Of a DNA stretch of 36,870 nt, positions 3,725-15,109 are shown in pieces. The DNA comes from a virus. Every line of letters begins with the position of its first letter. Position 1 is the first letter of the stretch. Under the pieces are notes generated by a model, which worked only from the letters and a program-made list of their open reading frames with translations, had not been told where the DNA came from and did no database searches. The position numbers and the translations under genes are program-made. The DNA lies in IMG/VR virus record IMGVR_UViG_3300044625_001023, positions 1 to 36,870 of that record; one strand, written 5' to 3'.

Positions 3725-4246
3725 ATGCCAAGGTGCAAGAATTGTAAGCAACCGTTTGAACCAGTTAGGTTCCTTCAAAAGTACTGCCTCCAGGAGGAGT
3801 GCGTTAAGGTTTGGGTGGAGCAGGTAAAAGCAGATGCCTGGAAGAAAACCAAGCAAAAGTGGAAAGTGGATAACGAAAAATTAAGTGATCTACTCCAGGC
3901 GGCACAAATTATCTTTAATCAATGGATTCGATTAAGGGATGCAGGGAGCGTTTGTATATCGTGTCAGAAACCTGCAAAAAAGGAGAACGCAGGGCATTAT
4001 TGGAACACCGCCTACCACCAGTCTGTTAGGTTTGATGAGGATAATGTGCACCTTCAATGTGAGCATTGCAACAACTCAAAGCACGGAGACCTGGCGAATT
4101 ATCAAATTCATTTAATTTCGAAAATAGGGCAGGAGAGATTTGACTCCCTCCAGGCTAAAGCAAAGCAAACAAGAAAGTTCTCCAGGGATGAGGTGCAGGA
4201 AATCATTAAAAGATACAAGACGGAAATAAAAAAATTGAAAAAATAA
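3725..4246 (+). CDS. ninG: NinG/Rap-like recombination nuclease
   Basis: The layout matches the lambda NinG (Rap) family. An N-terminal zinc-finger-like part has Cys at 4, 7, 21 and 26 (CKNC, CLQEEC). A helical linker follows, then a central HNH-like core with CISC, AGHYW, RF, HLQCEHCN and a Tyr/Leu-rich end. Lambda Rap acts on Holliday junctions and related branched DNA. The length (173 aa) is close to the usual size. It probably works with the ERF protein and exonuclease encoded further on. Confidence 0.85.
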   Translation: MPRCKNCKQPFEPVRFLQKYCLQEECVKVWVEQVKADAWKKTKQKWKVDNEKLSDLLQAAQIIFNQWIRLRDAGSVCISCQKPAKKENAGHYWNTAYHQSVRFDEDNVHLQCEHCNNSKHGDLANYQIHLISKIGQERFDSLQAKAKQTRKFSRDEVQEIIKRYKTEIKKLKK

Positions 4247-4736: not shown

Positions 4737-5171
4737 ATGGGAACGATAAAAAGATACGAGATACGCAAAGCGGCTACCGAATTTGTAAAAGAAAAGATAA
4801 CGAGCGGTGCGGAGGCTGCACATTATATCCGACAGTTTTATGGGGATGACCTGGAGGTATACGAATCCTTTTTTATGCTTATGTTAAACAATCAACTGCA
4901 AACTGTTGGGTATGCTAAAATAAGCCAGGGAGGAATTGTTGGAACGATAGTAGATAAAAGAATAGTTTTAAAATATGTGGTTGACTGCCTGGCTACCAAT
5001 GTTATCCTGGCACATAACCATCCAAGCGGCACGTTGCATCCAAGCGAGAGCGACAAGAAGATTACCCAGGAGATAAAGGAACTCTGTGCTATAATGAACA
5101 CTACCGTTGTAGATCACATAATTTTAACGGCAGATGAGTTTTACTCCTTTGCATCAAACGACTTACTATGA
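4737..5171 (+). CDS. RadC-like JAB/MPN-domain protein
   Basis: Contains the full JAMM/MPN+ metal-site signature HNHPSG...SESD: His93, His95, Ser97 and Asp106, with a conserved Glu at about 43. This matches the RadC-type JAB domain, here without the N-terminal helix-hairpin-helix part of chromosomal RadC (144 aa versus about 220). Such stand-alone RadC domains are common in phages and mobile elements; their substrate is not settled (peptidase or DNA-linked roles). Overlaps the next gene by 4 bp. Confidence 0.88.
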   Translation: MGTIKRYEIRKAATEFVKEKITSGAEAAHYIRQFYGDDLEVYESFFMLMLNNQLQTVGYAKISQGGIVGTIVDKRIVLKYVVDCLATNVILAHNHPSGTLHPSESDKKITQEIKELCAIMNTTVVDHIILTADEFYSFASNDLL

Positions 5172-9365: not shown

Positions 9366-9770
9366 ATGAGCAGTCAAGCAAAAAGAGAAACGTATACACA
9401 GCAACTTGAAAGCGGTGCGATACGAACGAAAACGGTAAAAGTTTTATACCACTTACAAAGATTAGAAACGCATCCAGGGTTGGTAACTACCGACATCCTT
9501 CGGGAAACATTAGGGTATTCCCACCAAACTCTAACAGCAATTTTGAGCCAACTCCAAGACCTTGGAATGATAAAAGTTATAGGTACCGTTAGATCACAAA
9601 AAGGGTCTTACTCCTCCTGGAAATATGTCAGCGATAGGGAAGAACAAAAGATTTTAGAGAGGGAAAGAAAAAGAGAAAAGTACGACCAATGGGTAAAAAG
9701 GGGGTTGGATGAGTTTGACGAATTGCTATCTTTTGAGATAAGGAGAGCGTTAATTTTTGAAGAATTGTAA
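9366..9770 (+). CDS. Winged-helix DNA-binding protein (134 aa)
   Basis: Residues about 20-80 form a winged helix: TVKVLYHLQRLETHPGLVTT, then a recognition-type segment GYSHQTLTAILSQLQDLGMI, and the wing VIGTVRSQKGSYSSWKYV, as in MarR-like regulators and replication-control proteins. A basic, charged helix follows (EERKREKYDQW-like) with an acidic end. It stands alone between repeat C and the promoter of the modification locus, so it may control that operon; this is inference. Confidence 0.7.
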   Translation: MSSQAKRETYTQQLESGAIRTKTVKVLYHLQRLETHPGLVTTDILRETLGYSHQTLTAILSQLQDLGMIKVIGTVRSQKGSYSSWKYVSDREEQKILERERKREKYDQWVKRGLDEFDELLSFEIRRALIFEEL

Positions 9771-9797
9771 CCACGAATAAAAAAATAAGTATATTTG
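9765..9797 (+). promoter_or_regulatory. Promoter of the modification locus
   Basis: TTG (9765-9767) at the end of the winged-helix gene, 22 bp spacer, then TATATTTG (9790-9797), an exact TAnnTTTG. It lacks the palindrome of P1-P4, so it is probably controlled differently. It precedes the gene at 9821 and the methyltransferase genes. Confidence 0.65.
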
Positions 9798-9820
9798 AAA
9801 ACGAATAAAAAAACAAAGAA

Positions 9821-10039
9821 ATGAAACAGAGCAAGTTAAATGTGATTGTTGCAGTAACATTATTTCCAGTGATAATTTTGGTTTTCTTCCTGGATAGAGG
9901 GATAACCGCACCGATGTTTTGGTTGGATAATATAAGGATAAAGTATTGGTTGGAGCAACCAAAAGAGATAGCGTCAAGTTTGTTAAGATGCCTGGCGTTG
10001 GGTATCTTGCTTTTAATAACATCCTTGTTCTTTGTATAG
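9821..10039 (+). CDS. Small two-helix membrane protein (72 aa)
   Basis: Hydrophobic segments at residues about 7-25 (NVIVAVTLFPVIILVFFLD) and 53-72 (SLLRCLALGILLLITSLFFV), separated by a polar, Trp-containing loop. The topology is holin-like, but the position in front of the modification genes does not support lysis. Function unknown. Confidence 0.65.
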   Translation: MKQSKLNVIVAVTLFPVIILVFFLDRGITAPMFWLDNIRIKYWLEQPKEIASSLLRCLALGILLLITSLFFV

Positions 10040-10054
10040 TAAAAAAGTAGATAA

Positions 10055-11593
10055 ATGATAAATGAAGTTCACATTAAAAAAGTAAAGGCTAACGCCAAAA
10101 ACCCTCGTATAATCAAAGACGAGAAGTTCCGCCAATTAGTTAGAAGTATAGAGAGGTTTCCCGAAATGCTATACAAAAGACCGTTGATAGTTAGTTCCAT
10201 CAAAGGAGGAAACTACGAAGTGCTTGGTGGAAATATGAGGTTGGCAGCATTGCAGCATTTGGAAAGAGAAATGGTACCAGTTATCCTGGCAGATGATTGG
10301 TCGGAGGAGCAGAAAAAAGAGTTTTTGATTGCCGATAACGTAAATTACGGAATGTGGGATTGGGATGTCCTGGCAAATGAGTGGGATGTAGAAGACTTGG
10401 AGCAATGGGGGTTGGAAATGCCTTTTATTGATAGCGGAGCATTTGGAGAGCCTACAAGCATCCAGGGAGAGCCTGGAGAGGTTTACGAGGCAGAAGTAGA
10501 GCAAAGAGTTCACTCGTCCTTATCGGATAAATTTATAGTTCCACCCTTTTCTGTTTTTGATACTAAACAAGGATATTGGCAAACAAGGAAAGCGGAGTGG
10601 AAAGGGTTAGGTATTCAGTCAGAGATTGGCAGAGGCGGAAACCTTTTAAATTATAGTGAGACAATTCTCCAGGCATCAAACCCAAAGAAAAAGTTAGCGG
10701 AGATTTTAAAAGGCAACAGTCCGAATACCGCAAACATAGAAAGTAAGATACCAAACTATTATGCAAAGAAGGAGCAGGGTTTGACGGATGCTGAAATCAT
10801 AAAGGAATTTATTGAGAGTAGCGAGTTAAGTGGAACGAGCGTCTTTGACCCAGTTCTTTGTGAGATTTCTTACCGATGGTTTTGTAAAGAAGGCGGTACC
10901 ATACTTGACCCTTTTGCAGGTGGCAGCGTTAGAGGTATAGTAGCATCCAAGGTAGGAAGGAATTATATTGGTATAGATTTGAGAGCGGAGCAGGTAGAGG
11001 CTAACAAAAAGCAAGTGCAAGAAATATGTGTAGATCACTTGCCGCAATATTTTGTTGGTAGTTCGGAGCAGATGAGTGGAATGTTAAACTCATTGGATGA
11101 GAAACCTACCGTTGATATGATTTTCACTTGCCCTCCTTACTATGATTTGGAGCAATATAGTGAAGACCCCCAGGACTTGTCAGCGATGGCACACGAGGAG
11201 TTTGATAAGGTATACGAATATATTATCCAGGAAAGTATTAAAAACCTGGCAGACGATAGTTTTAGCGTTTATGTTGTTGGGGATGTTAGGGACAAGAATG
11301 GCGTATACCTGGACTTGATAGGAAAAACGGTAGAGGCACACCGCAAAGCAGGAGCGGTTTACTATAACAGTGCAATCCTTTTGGAAAGCGTTGGTACAGC
11401 AGGGTTGAGAGCAGCCAGGATATTTAACGGAGGTAGAAAGTTGTGCAAGGTGCACCAAAACGTTTTGGTTTTCTATAAGGGCAATATTGCTAATATCAAA
11501 TCAAAGTTTGGTGAATTAATCAACGATATTGATGAGGTGGAAGAGATGGAGCAACCTATAACAAGCACTTTGAATTTAGCAACAGAAATATAA
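10055..11593 (+). CDS. ParB-domain/DNA methyltransferase fusion (N6A or N4C type)
   Basis: Residues 1-130 form a ParB/Srx-like nuclease-type domain, with the signature LGGNMRLAAL at 57-66. A middle section (KFIVPPFSVFDTKQGYW, 159-175) is typical of phage ParB-methyltransferase fusions. The C-terminal half carries methyltransferase motif I ILDPFAGGS (283-291), the acidic SAM contact IGIDL (305-309) and motif IV TCPPYYD (358-364). Motif I precedes motif IV. The CPPY form fits N4-cytosine or N6-adenine methylation of DNA. Such fusions usually lack a partner restriction enzyme and protect phage DNA. First enzyme of a three-gene locus; its target is unknown. Confidence 0.85.
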   Translation: MINEVHIKKVKANAKNPRIIKDEKFRQLVRSIERFPEMLYKRPLIVSSIKGGNYEVLGGNMRLAALQHLEREMVPVILADDWSEEQKKEFLIADNVNYGMWDWDVLANEWDVEDLEQWGLEMPFIDSGAFGEPTSIQGEPGEVYEAEVEQRVHSSLSDKFIVPPFSVFDTKQGYWQTRKAEWKGLGIQSEIGRGGNLLNYSETILQASNPKKKLAEILKGNSPNTANIESKIPNYYAKKEQGLTDAEIIKEFIESSELSGTSVFDPVLCEISYRWFCKEGGTILDPFAGGSVRGIVASKVGRNYIGIDLRAEQVEANKKQVQEICVDHLPQYFVGSSEQMSGMLNSLDEKPTVDMIFTCPPYYDLEQYSEDPQDLSAMAHEEFDKVYEYIIQESIKNLADDSFSVYVVGDVRDKNGVYLDLIGKTVEAHRKAGAVYYNSAILLESVGTAGLRAARIFNGGRKLCKVHQNVLVFYKGNIANIKSKFGELINDIDEVEEMEQPITSTLNLATEI

Positions 11594-11600
11594 AAAAGTT

Positions 11601-12719
11601 ATGAACAGTTGGCAGCAAGGTTACGACCTGGAACTCTTAAAAGGATTAAAAAAAGTAGTTCAAAAAGATTATAAACCGTATGTTTTCGGAGCGTTTGGGA
11701 TGCCTAACGAACGAGATATAGCAACAGCATTATCAAAAGGGCAGGTATTAAAAACTAAAGAGAACGATACCCTGGCTATCTACCAACAATATACTTCCAA
11801 GAGCAGAGTAACAGACTTTACTCAAAATTCTTTTAGTATCCTTCCTGGATGGACTTTTATTAAGCACATAGCAGGAGTGCAGAAAAAAAAGATATTAGAG
11901 TACTTTGTTGATAATGTTAAAACCCCTCTTTTGATTGAGATATTTGACGAAGATAAAGCGGTAAGGGATATAGTGGAAGGATTGGGTTTTGAGTATATAA
12001 CAACCAAGATAGCAGCAAGTAGCGACCTTAAAGGAATATACGGATTGAGGCTAAACGCTAACTATACCCTTGCTCCAGGAGAGGAAATAAATATTAAAGA
12101 GATAGACCCCCACTTTCTAACTCCAAGTGATCTACAAAGCATAAAGCAAGAGTTAGAGCAGTTCACCAGTTGGGAAGACCATTACAGCACTTATAATAAA
12201 AGGCAAAGTTGGAGTGCCTTCGCTATAAGAGGGTATGACCAAAACAATCCTAACTTTATAATCAAGCCTACGGAGATGAGCCAAAAGTGGAAACAAGAAA
12301 ACGCCGAAAGATTGAAGGATAAAAGTGGGTGGACTAATGCGGTAGATAAGTTTCCGCATACCCGAAAGATAGTAGAGAGTATGTTCCTGGGGAGTGCTCC
12401 AGATAGGGTTAGGTTTATGAGATTAACCAAGGGCAACGGAGAACTATCACGCCACGCAGATATAACGGACAAGGAGGCAGGAGTTCAGCCAGGGAAGTCG
12501 GTAAGGCTGCACATTCCTATCTATACCAATCCACAAGTTATCTTTAACTCCTGGACTCATAAGGGAGAGAGAAGTATTGTTAATATGACGGAAGGAAGTT
12601 TATGGTACTTGGATACGAGAAAACCGCATACCGCAGTAAATAATGGAGATAGGGATAGAGTTCACTTGGTTATGGACTTTTTTGTTTCGGATGCGATGTA
12701 TAAAAAAATGATTGGATAG
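11601..12719 (+). CDS. Two-domain protein: GNAT-like N-terminus plus Asp/Arg-hydroxylase-type 2OG-Fe(II) domain
   Basis: The C-terminal part (about 260-362) matches the aspartyl/asparaginyl (Asp_Arg) hydroxylase fold of 2-oxoglutarate-Fe(II) oxygenases: RFMRLTKGNGELSRHAD gives the H-x-D pair His285/Asp287, then VRLHIPIYTN, the distal His343 in KPHTAVN, and Arg353 in DRDRVHLVMD for 2-oxoglutarate. The N-terminal 150 residues end in a GNAT-like pattern (IVEGLGFEYITTKI...GIYGLRL), a weaker call. It lies 7 bp after one methyltransferase gene and ends next to the other, so oxidation or further modification of methylated bases in DNA is a plausible role. A protein substrate cannot be excluded. Confidence 0.7.
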   Translation: MNSWQQGYDLELLKGLKKVVQKDYKPYVFGAFGMPNERDIATALSKGQVLKTKENDTLAIYQQYTSKSRVTDFTQNSFSILPGWTFIKHIAGVQKKKILEYFVDNVKTPLLIEIFDEDKAVRDIVEGLGFEYITTKIAASSDLKGIYGLRLNANYTLAPGEEINIKEIDPHFLTPSDLQSIKQELEQFTSWEDHYSTYNKRQSWSAFAIRGYDQNNPNFIIKPTEMSQKWKQENAERLKDKSGWTNAVDKFPHTRKIVESMFLGSAPDRVRFMRLTKGNGELSRHADITDKEAGVQPGKSVRLHIPIYTNPQVIFNSWTHKGERSIVNMTEGSLWYLDTRKPHTAVNNGDRDRVHLVMDFFVSDAMYKKMIG

Positions 12720-13346
12720 ATGGAAAGCAAGAAGGTAAAGAGGGAAGTGATATGTGCCGACTCCCACCAATGGTTGCTAACTCAAAAGGATATAAAAGCA
12801 ATCATAACGAGCCTACCCGATATGGAGGAGACTAATCATTCCCTGGAGGAGTGGGAGCAGTGGGTGAGGGAAACTTGTAGTCTTTTGGCTGCATCTTTAA
12901 GCCAGGATGGTATAATCATTTTTTATCAAACCGACCGAAAACATAAAGGGTTCAACATAGAAAAGAAAACATTGATTAGCCAGGAGTTCAAACTAATGGG
13001 GTATGATAATATATTTAACAAGATAGTACTAAAGCAGCAGCCCGAAACAGTTAATCTGTTCCGTCCTGGGTTTTCAAATATGTTCGGTTTCAGCAAAGCA
13101 GCAAAGAGTGGTAAGGCTACGCCCGATGTTCTTTACGCAGGGGAGATGGTATATAAAAACGCTATGGGGTTCAAGGCTGGAAAGTTAGCGATTGATTTCA
13201 TTAGCAGCCAGGGAGATACTGATACGATAGTAGACCCGTTCTGTGGGCAGGGTTCCATTCTGAAACTGGCAAATGATAACGGATATAACGCAGTAGGGGT
13301 GGATATAGTCCAGGAGCAATGTAATAAGGCGTTGAAGTTAAGATAA
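12720..13346 (+). CDS. SAM-dependent methyltransferase with atypical motif IV (208 aa)
   Basis: Motif IV is TSLPD (residues 30-34) where DNA methyltransferases have (T/S/N/D)PP(Y/W/F), then a helical region, IIIFYQTDRKHKG (66-77), KATPDVLYAGEMVYKNAMG, and motif I TIVDPFCGQGS (169-179) with the SAM contact AVGVDI. The order IV before I is that of beta-class DNA methyltransferases. The missing second Pro and aromatic residue point to a changed catalytic base or substrate. It begins one base after the oxygenase stop. I recall similar TSxPD-type proteins in phages without an assigned target; this is memory, not a search. Confidence 0.72.
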   Translation: MESKKVKREVICADSHQWLLTQKDIKAIITSLPDMEETNHSLEEWEQWVRETCSLLAASLSQDGIIIFYQTDRKHKGFNIEKKTLISQEFKLMGYDNIFNKIVLKQQPETVNLFRPGFSNMFGFSKAAKSGKATPDVLYAGEMVYKNAMGFKAGKLAIDFISSQGDTDTIVDPFCGQGSILKLANDNGYNAVGVDIVQEQCNKALKLR

Positions 13347-13422: not shown

Positions 13423-13788
13423 ATGGCAGGAAAAGGACAAATTGAACCAAGGTGGCAGAAGGGAGAGAGCGGCAACCCTGGAGGGAGACCAAGAGGTTCC
13501 AGGAACCGTAGCACCATAGCAAAGTATTGGTTGGAGATAGAACAGCGATTGAAGAACCCTTTAACTGGAGTGGACGAGACGATGAGCCAGGAAGATTTAA
13601 TGACCTTGGCACAGATAAAGAAAGCAAGAGAGGGAGATACCGTGGCGTATAAAGCACTTATGGACTCCACCTATGGATCACCAGTGCAACAAGTAGAGCA
13701 GATGCAAACAAACTATGATTTCAGCAACCTAACCGTTGAGGAGATAAGGGAAATATTAAAGGATGCAGGACAGCCAACTGACGAGTAA
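13423..13788 (+). CDS. Terminase small-subunit-like protein (DUF5681-like)
   Basis: The N-terminus PRWQKGESGNPGGRPRGSRN is the Gly/Arg-rich signature of DUF5681 proteins, which often sit directly before terminase large-subunit genes and likely act as the small subunit. The rest is helical (MSQEDLMTLAQIKKAREGDT) with an acidic end. It overlaps the large terminase gene by 26 bp. Confidence 0.8.
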   Translation: MAGKGQIEPRWQKGESGNPGGRPRGSRNRSTIAKYWLEIEQRLKNPLTGVDETMSQEDLMTLAQIKKAREGDTVAYKALMDSTYGSPVQQVEQMQTNYDFSNLTVEEIREILKDAGQPTDE

Positions 13789-15109
13789 AGACCTCGTTCC
13801 ACAACTTTACTTTCATCTTTGCCGCACGGTCTTTTGGGACTTTTGCCTTTTCTATGACCGCCCATTTTTTACCAAGCGACCATTCCTTAAACAAGTGGCG
13901 AACTCCTTCCAGGAGATAGAGGAGGGAAAGATTAAATCGTTAAGCGTTTCAATGCCACCTAGGGCAGGAAAGAGTTATATAACTAGCCTCTTTTGTGCCT
14001 GGAGCATAGGCAGAAACCCAAGTGAATCGGTGATGCGGAACACCTGCACCGCCACCCTATACTTAAAGTTCTCGTATGATGTTAGGGCAATCCTAAAAAG
14101 CGACAAGTTCCGTTCGGTCTTTGCCTACGTTTCCCTTTCGGATGATAAGAGCAATCTAAACGGATGGAACACAAGTCAAGCCAGGCAGGTTAGTTATTTC
14201 GGAGCAGGGGTAGGAGGAACAATTATTGGTTTTGGAGCAACAAAGATTGGTATAACCGATGACCTTTACCGAGGTTTGGAGGACGCACTATCAGATACGG
14301 TCAACGATAGGATAATTCAGTGGAAGGAGGCAACGCACGACTCCAGGTTCGAGAGAGGATGTGCCAGGATAGATATTGGAACGAGGTGGAGTATAAACGA
14401 TATAATAGGGAGGAACATAGAGGGAAGGATATACGATAAATCTATTATCATACCTGCCTTGGATGAAAGTGGCAACTCGTTCTGTGAGGATGTTATGACC
14501 ACTAAAGAGTATGAAGAAAAGCGAGACCGAACGGAACAAAGCATTTGGAGTGCGGAGTATATGCAAGAGCCAGTGGATATTAAAGGTCGCTTATTTAATC
14601 AAATGGTCTTCCTGGATGATGTTCCCGAACTGGAAGGCTGCATTGCTTATGTGGATGTTGCAGACCAGGGAGCGGACTATACGGCAGCGGCAGTCCTGGG
14701 GGTAAGCGGCAACGAGTTCTATGTGGTTGACTATGTTTATAATAAGAACAACACCGACATAACCCTCCCAATGGTATCCTCTATGCTTAATAAATGGGGA
14801 GTGAAATATTGCAGGGTAGAGAGCAACAGTATGGGTGCTATGTTTGCCCGACACCTGCAAAGAGAAACGCCAAACTGCCGCATCCTGCAAGTTCCTAACA
14901 CCTCCAAAAAAGAAACTCGTATCCTTATGCAATGCATTTGGTTGCAGCAGCGTGTGAAGTATCTAAACAACAGAACTCCCGAATGCCTACAATTCCTGGA
15001 GAATGTCCAGGCATACAGCAAAGAAGGAAGGAACAAGAATGATGACGCACCCGACTGCCTGGCAGGGTTGTCCGTCTTTGCTCAGGGGATGTTTAAACAT
15101 ATAGCATAG
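13763..15109 (+). CDS. terL: Terminase large subunit
   Basis: The ATPase half has Walker A SMPPRAGKS (63-71) and a Walker B-like IGITDD (162-167). The nuclease half has YVDVADQGADYTA (Asp298, with Asp301), RVESN (Glu353) and NDDAPDCLAGL (about 426-435), the three acidic clusters of the RNase H-type terminase nuclease. 448 residues is normal. The motor cuts concatemeric DNA and pumps it into the prohead through the portal. The ATG lies inside the small-subunit gene. Confidence 0.93.
   Translation: MQDSQLTSKDLVPQLYFHLCRTVFWDFCLFYDRPFFTKRPFLKQVANSFQEIEEGKIKSLSVSMPPRAGKSYITSLFCAWSIGRNPSESVMRNTCTATLYLKFSYDVRAILKSDKFRSVFAYVSLSDDKSNLNGWNTSQARQVSYFGAGVGGTIIGFGATKIGITDDLYRGLEDALSDTVNDRIIQWKEATHDSRFERGCARIDIGTRWSINDIIGRNIEGRIYDKSIIIPALDESGNSFCEDVMTTKEYEEKRDRTEQSIWSAEYMQEPVDIKGRLFNQMVFLDDVPELEGCIAYVDVADQGADYTAAAVLGVSGNEFYVVDYVYNKNNTDITLPMVSSMLNKWGVKYCRVESNSMGAMFARHLQRETPNCRILQVPNTSKKETRILMQCIWLQQRVKYLNNRTPECLQFLENVQAYSKEGRNKNDDAPDCLAGLSVFAQGMFKHIA

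Follow-up and report, generated by a model that had tools for sequence, protein, structure and literature searches.

Three adjacent plus-strand genes lie directly upstream of the terminase genes in the window, the whole 36,870-base virus contig analysed here (G+C 39.7%; Table 1). ParB-methyltransferase cassettes of other phages likewise sit just 5′ of terminase. A preliminary description of this DNA had proposed the three-gene locus, and the ORFs are indeed where it placed them. The tight spacing it reported also holds, although the gaps are 7 nt (P0001/P0002) and 0 nt (P0002/P0003) rather than 8 and 1. The single promoter it assigned to the genes stands less firmly: a box is present, but it is a mere consensus match, and a 72-aa ORF separates it from P0001. 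Across the window, TANNTTTG boxes occur at chance frequency (49 seen versus 44 expected). The 72-aa ORF had no family match by Pfam and phrog comparison and is possibly outside the system. Among the neighbouring genes examined with Pfam and phrog, no restriction endonuclease was found. NinG-like and RadC-like phage proteins are encoded elsewhere in the window, at 3725-4246 and 4737-5171.

Table 1. Features of the cassette and its flanks in the window.
Feature	Coordinates	Strand	Description
Promoter-like box (TATATTTG, TANNTTTG)	9790-9797	+	Consensus match only, upstream of unit
72-aa ORF	9821-10039	+	ORF call; hydrophobic stretches, membrane-like; first in putative transcription unit
P0001	10055-11593	+	512 aa; ParB_N fused to N6/N4-type DNA methyltransferase; phrog_498 family
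P0002	11601-12719	+	372 aa; GNAT-fold N-terminus and AspH/proline cis-4-hydroxylase-type Fe(II)/2-oxoglutarate (2OG) oxygenase
P0003	12720-13346	+	208 aa; beta-order N6/N4-type methyltransferase, motif IV TSLPD
Terminase genes	13423-15109	+	DUF5681 small-subunit-like and terminase large subunit; PF18932 5e-14, phrog_38 3e-69

P0001 matches ParB_N (1e-7) and N6_N4_Mtase (3e-14) in Pfam, and phrog_498 at 3e-102. Its motif I (DPFAGGSVRG) and motif IV (TCPPYYD) conform to the N6/N4 methyltransferase pattern of DPFxG plus (D/N/S/C)PP(Y/F/W), and CPPYxDLE is invariant across 15 diverse relatives. The same domain architecture is seen in the ParB-methyltransferase fusions of phages surveyed previously (PMC12704722); the words PLP, pyridoxal and oxygenase are absent from the text of that survey.

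P0003 also matches N6_N4_Mtase (3e-11; motif I DPFCGQGS), with an acidic residue in motif IV at the place usually held by Y/F/W, so that this motif lacks the aromatic end of the pattern. DPFAGGS, TCPPYYD and TSLPD had all been read correctly in the preliminary description. Because TS(L/P/V)P(D/E) is kept in P0003 and in relatives as distant as those of haloarchaeal virus HCTV-2 and T4-like phages, we regard the altered motif as a family feature rather than as decay, and it may mean that the target is not the usual flipped-out base amine. All true P0003 relatives adjoin the methyltransferase. In P0001, P0002 and P0003, differences are ~2-5 times as frequent at third codon positions as at the other two, indicating that all three genes are under constraint.

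P0002 matches Asp_Arg_Hydrox (PF05118) at 3e-15, with 56.8 bits against a cut-off of 22.6. Its HxD...H...R site (metal site and 2OG-binding Arg; His285, Asp287, His343 and Arg353, as first noticed from the sequence) aligns to that of 4p7w and is invariant in 32 aligned relatives. An AlphaFold2 model built with 32 sequences (mean pLDDT 94.5, pTM 0.88) consists of a GNAT fold (~residues 1-155) and a cupin-barrel oxygenase (~160-372). The best matches to the oxygenase part (Foldseek, VIA) are L-proline cis-4-hydroxylase (Z 16.5, 184 residues, rmsd 3.5) and AspH (Z 16.0, 166 residues, rmsd 3.1), while Tet_JBP (PF12851) gave no match up to E 1. L-proline cis-4-hydroxylase and AspH, whose substrates are free amino acids or protein side chains, have the fold and HxD...H...R site in common with P0002; unlike them, P0002 has a GNAT-fold domain and adjoins DNA methyltransferases.

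The GNAT-like nature of the N-terminus was borne out by a model of residues 1-158 alone (pLDDT 93.3; best Foldseek E 1.3e-4), which resembles GNATs only among the matches listed. The acyl transfer once suggested for this domain is not supported, however. The acetyl-CoA loop R/Q-x-x-G-x-G/A is missing in P0002, which has H89-I-A-G-V-Q94 instead, and is present in 4 of 32 homologues, making catalysis by the GNAT-fold domain doubtful.

The oxygenase family and its partners

P0002 relatives are found almost exclusively in viruses. IMG/VR, queried once by sequence and once by profile, yielded 71 loci with a relative (the prefix L marks a locus here and below), whereas among 84,980 genomes of bacteria and archaea only 2 had one. 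Both prokaryotic loci are on MAG contigs of ~11 kb, where the oxygenase gene has a PLP-enzyme gene and a methyltransferase gene beside it. At 90% identity, the family comprises 50 non-redundant members, and in 45 of these a P0001-type DNA methyltransferase is encoded within 2.5 kb of the oxygenase (31 of the 33 that do not lie near a contig end), counts that derive from pattern-seeded searches and are biased to relatives of the query. The two exceptions among the 33 are mycobacteriophage LilMcDreamy, with TET/JBP-like and amino acid:DNA transferase (ADDT) genes, and L046, with a PLP-enzyme gene. T4-like phages pair the oxygenase with a distantly related N6_N4_Mtase protein of ~520 aa. We found no description of the oxygenase-methyltransferase pair in the literature searched, chiefly open-access.

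The gene trio that the preliminary description treated as a unit is not kept as such. The third gene is P0003-like in this phage as well as in L002, L003 and L069; relatives mostly have a PLP fold-II protein instead (PALP; 236-290 aa), which is the third gene in ~30 of the 50 non-redundant members. PF00291 is matched by 32 of 34 PALP members (best 5e-13), the PLP-binding Lys is present in 34 of 35 and the RDD..GGxK motif is kept; the family profile resembles cysteine synthase and ACC deaminase. A weak match of this profile to ribosomal protein L21 was set aside as spurious, since PALP matches dominate with more sequences. Among the best 80 PALP loci, overlapping loci retained, a methyltransferase is found in 79 and an oxygenase too in 18. 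Proteins without a family match also occur in some cassettes: a 199-aa protein between the oxygenase and PLP-enzyme genes (L018:6308-6907 and L192:4061-4660) and the product of a 206-aa gene between methyltransferase and oxygenase (L020:5366-5986). The ParB_N domain has weak SerK/SbnI matches, raising the idea of a free-serine kinase that might supply O-phosphoserine to the PLP enzyme; with no PLP enzyme in the window, we keep this as speculation.

In several phages, these parts are joined in one chain. L024 encodes ParB, methyltransferase and oxygenase in a single 918-aa protein, and one 1218-aa ORF of L032 (4135-7791) comprises ParB, methyltransferase motif I, PALP, oxygenase and methyltransferase motif IV. 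That PALP and oxygenase are inserted between the SAM-binding and the catalytic motif strongly indicates that both act together with the methyltransferase. In Erythrobacter phage ZS04 the L032 layout lacks the oxygenase (860 aa, counted from the furthest upstream start), and a ParB-methyltransferase-PALP protein of 829 aa is encoded by Pseudanabaena phage Pam4.

Gene content of the terminase-proximal slot

The position before terminase is a swap slot, with interchangeable gene content, in Bclasvirinae mycobacteriophages and in a Gordonia phage. ChrisnMich carries ParB and TET/JBP-like genes there; Phelemich carries ParB, TET/JBP-like and ADDT-like genes and an annotated oxidoreductase ('monooxygenase'); and the slot of Gordonia phage CaiB holds ParB, an annotated oxidoreductase (TET/JBP-like), an ADDT-like gene, an annotated adenylate kinase and another annotated oxidoreductase. 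LilMcDreamy has ParB, TET/JBP-like and ADDT (PF18724, 3e-12) genes followed by the P0002 homologue, and its sister phages have an annotated monooxygenase or oxidoreductase at or near the oxygenase position. Vincenzo, of the same subfamily, has a ParB-methyltransferase and PALP in the slot. Comparing these contents, we find that the oxygenase stands in for a late-acting oxidase within a known hypermodification layout.

The TET/JBP assignment in LilMcDreamy is based on a sub-threshold match (E 0.002) together with an HxD...H...R motif. Given this motif and the weak Tet_JBP match, we dropped an earlier reading of the same gene, the second in the slot, as a 'queuine tRNA-ribosyltransferase', that is, DpdA. 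The label itself (phrog_6059; L011:855-1784, with homologues in 89 phage records) looks wrong.

The TET/JBP plus amino acid:DNA transferase (aGPT-PPlase-type) operons of actinobacteriophages occupy the same genomic slot, with a ParB gene first and terminase next, and similarly combine an oxygenase and a transferase acting on a base; one of them, that of LilMcDreamy, contains the P0002 homologue. The cassette differs from these operons in that an N6/N4-type methyltransferase, not TET/JBP, would carry out the first step, with a PLP enzyme or a second methyltransferase as partner.

The 2OG enzymes closest to P0002 have free amino acids or proteins as substrates, so that P0002 could itself act on a protein. 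The methyltransferases might then install ordinary protective m6A or m4C while the oxygenase hydroxylates, and thereby regulates, a protein such as the methyltransferase, a host nuclease or a ribosomal protein. PF05118 and the nearest structures do include AspH, and ParB-methyltransferases also occur on their own: 48 of 141 non-redundant ones lack any accessory gene sought and have an unchanged motif I. Several observations nevertheless make a protein target unlikely. First, the LilMcDreamy oxygenase pairs with TET/JBP-like and ADDT genes in place of a methyltransferase. Second, the methyltransferase chain of L032 contains both PALP and oxygenase. Finally, the PLP enzyme would be left unexplained.

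SAM donors and site statistics

Five non-redundant P0001-family members (L184, L188, L191, L217 and L235) adjoin a SAM decarboxylase; one of the five decarboxylases was tested against Pfam and matches AdoMet_dc at 2e-19. All five of these ParB-methyltransferases have GD(T/S)VFG in motif I, compared with 0 of 136 others (Fisher p 2e-9), among which GGSVRG is the most common form and the one found in P0001 itself. Both SAM decarboxylases from isolated phages keep ESHF..HT.PE. These data suggest that the decarboxylase-linked ParB-methyltransferases may use decarboxylated SAM, with aminopropyl transfer to DNA, and that the P0001 family serves more than methylation through non-methyl donors.

A precedent for a modified SAM is CmoX, a C5-methyltransferase with a carboxy-SAM donor (PMC12783734). 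The available part of that report describes a CmoA-CmoX-CmoY carboxymethylcytosine pathway that resembles the cassette in having a phage DNA methyltransferase as its entry step, with accessory enzymes and ParB-domain proteins nearby, and in that part neither a 2OG oxygenase nor a PLP enzyme is seen. P0001 and P0003 also differ from the C5-type enzyme of that pathway in being N6/N4-type.

Taken more broadly, an accessory enzyme (mostly the PLP enzyme, in some loci the SAM decarboxylase) could make a SAM derivative from which the ParB-methyltransferase transfers a larger group. The motif I difference, the conserved decarboxylase motif and the carboxy-SAM precedent all favor such a scheme, but methyltransferases beside PALP, the oxygenase or the second methyltransferase (MT3) mostly share the motif I of solitary ones. 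With motif I unchanged, the window's own ParB-methyltransferase probably uses SAM itself as donor, and we consider the broader scheme improbable.

The site anomalies that the preliminary description associated with the cassette are real in themselves. In the window, GATC is about 4-5 fold low (22 seen versus about 78 expected), and CCWGG occurs at 4.5x (226 versus about 47-50) and is spread over the whole genome. Comparison with synonymous-codon shuffles (184 versus 48, z about 26) confirms selection or mutation on the CCWGG site itself. The pattern is common to the window and its closest relative, L001 (CCWGG 5.3x). L020 (13116 bases) has GATC 4.4-fold high (288 versus 66 expected; 270 versus 125 in synonymous shuffles).

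The proposed link of these anomalies to the cassette is unproven, however. Palindrome enrichment in oxygenase-bearing loci as a group is not above that of controls (median top z 4.0 versus 5.3 and 4.1), and CCWGG is absent from the L002 group, though P0001 is 68% identical there. We therefore set CCWGG aside as an unproven candidate for the cassette's target. AGCT, CATG, GGCC, CCGG and GCGC number 0 in the window, and this complete avoidance of many restriction palindromes disfavors a mark that protects the whole genome.

A proposed route to a modified base

Multi-step modification of DNA bases, as put forward in the preliminary description, is supported by the frequency with which a methyltransferase lies beside the oxygenase, by two fusions and by the TET/JBP-like and transferase genes of LilMcDreamy. 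We consider it probable that the cassette is a phage DNA hypermodification system in which the oxygenase oxidises a group placed on a base.

We infer that the substrate is DNA, and propose the following order of steps. The ParB-methyltransferase, whose class is evident from its motifs, would first use SAM to alkylate an exocyclic amine at the target site, either adenine N6 or cytosine N4. P0002 would then reach the DNA through its GNAT-fold domain and its association with the methyltransferase, and would hydroxylate the base-borne group. An amino-acid-like or alkyl appendage is the likeliest identity of this group, given that the nearest structural relatives of P0002 hydroxylate free or peptide-bound amino acids. 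A tailoring enzyme, the PLP fold-II enzyme in most relatives and P0003 here, may then complete the group. The product would be a bulky, site-specific mark, made before packaging and probably blocking host nucleases.

Alternatively, the oxygenase could be an eraser that removes methyl groups laid down by the methyltransferases through AlkB-like oxidative demethylation, leaving a switchable mark. P0002 and AlkB share the DSBH fold, and the Foldseek matches of P0002 include AlkB structures. The proline-hydroxylase/AspH branch fits P0002 better, however. A methylase fused to its own eraser would serve no purpose, and the PLP partner would again lack a role, so that we view an eraser as very unlikely. 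That unrelated genes with no common pathway have simply collected in a hypervariable pre-terminase slot is hardly credible: slot contents do differ between sister phages, but the pairing recurs over distant phages and three kinds of fusion exist. With both the gene pair and fused forms of the parts conserved across such phages, chance is ruled out.

Within the hypermodification reading, we tentatively suggest a more specific chemistry. A multi-domain machine of ParB-methyltransferase, PLP fold-II enzyme and AspH-type oxygenase might build amino-acid-like appendages on an exocyclic amine, with swappable tailoring parts (second methyltransferase, PLP enzyme, SAM decarboxylase) giving phage-specific marks; such chemistry would be previously undescribed. 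Parts of the cassette are found in the isolated phages LilMcDreamy, Vincenzo, AlanGrant, ZS04, Pam4, Mae-JY30, HCTV-2, P2559S and ZRG1. Among these, the methyltransferase is accompanied by the PLP enzyme in Vincenzo and AlanGrant, by MT3 in HCTV-2 and by a SAM decarboxylase in P2559S and ZRG1.

Well-studied phage DNA hypermodifications begin at 5hmC, 5hmU, 5-carboxymethylcytosine or 7-deazaguanine. If our reading is correct, a route that enters through an N6/N4-type methyltransferase and recruits a PLP enzyme and an oxygenase of the amino-acid type would extend DNA chemistry by a new branch and would probably be a strategy against restriction.
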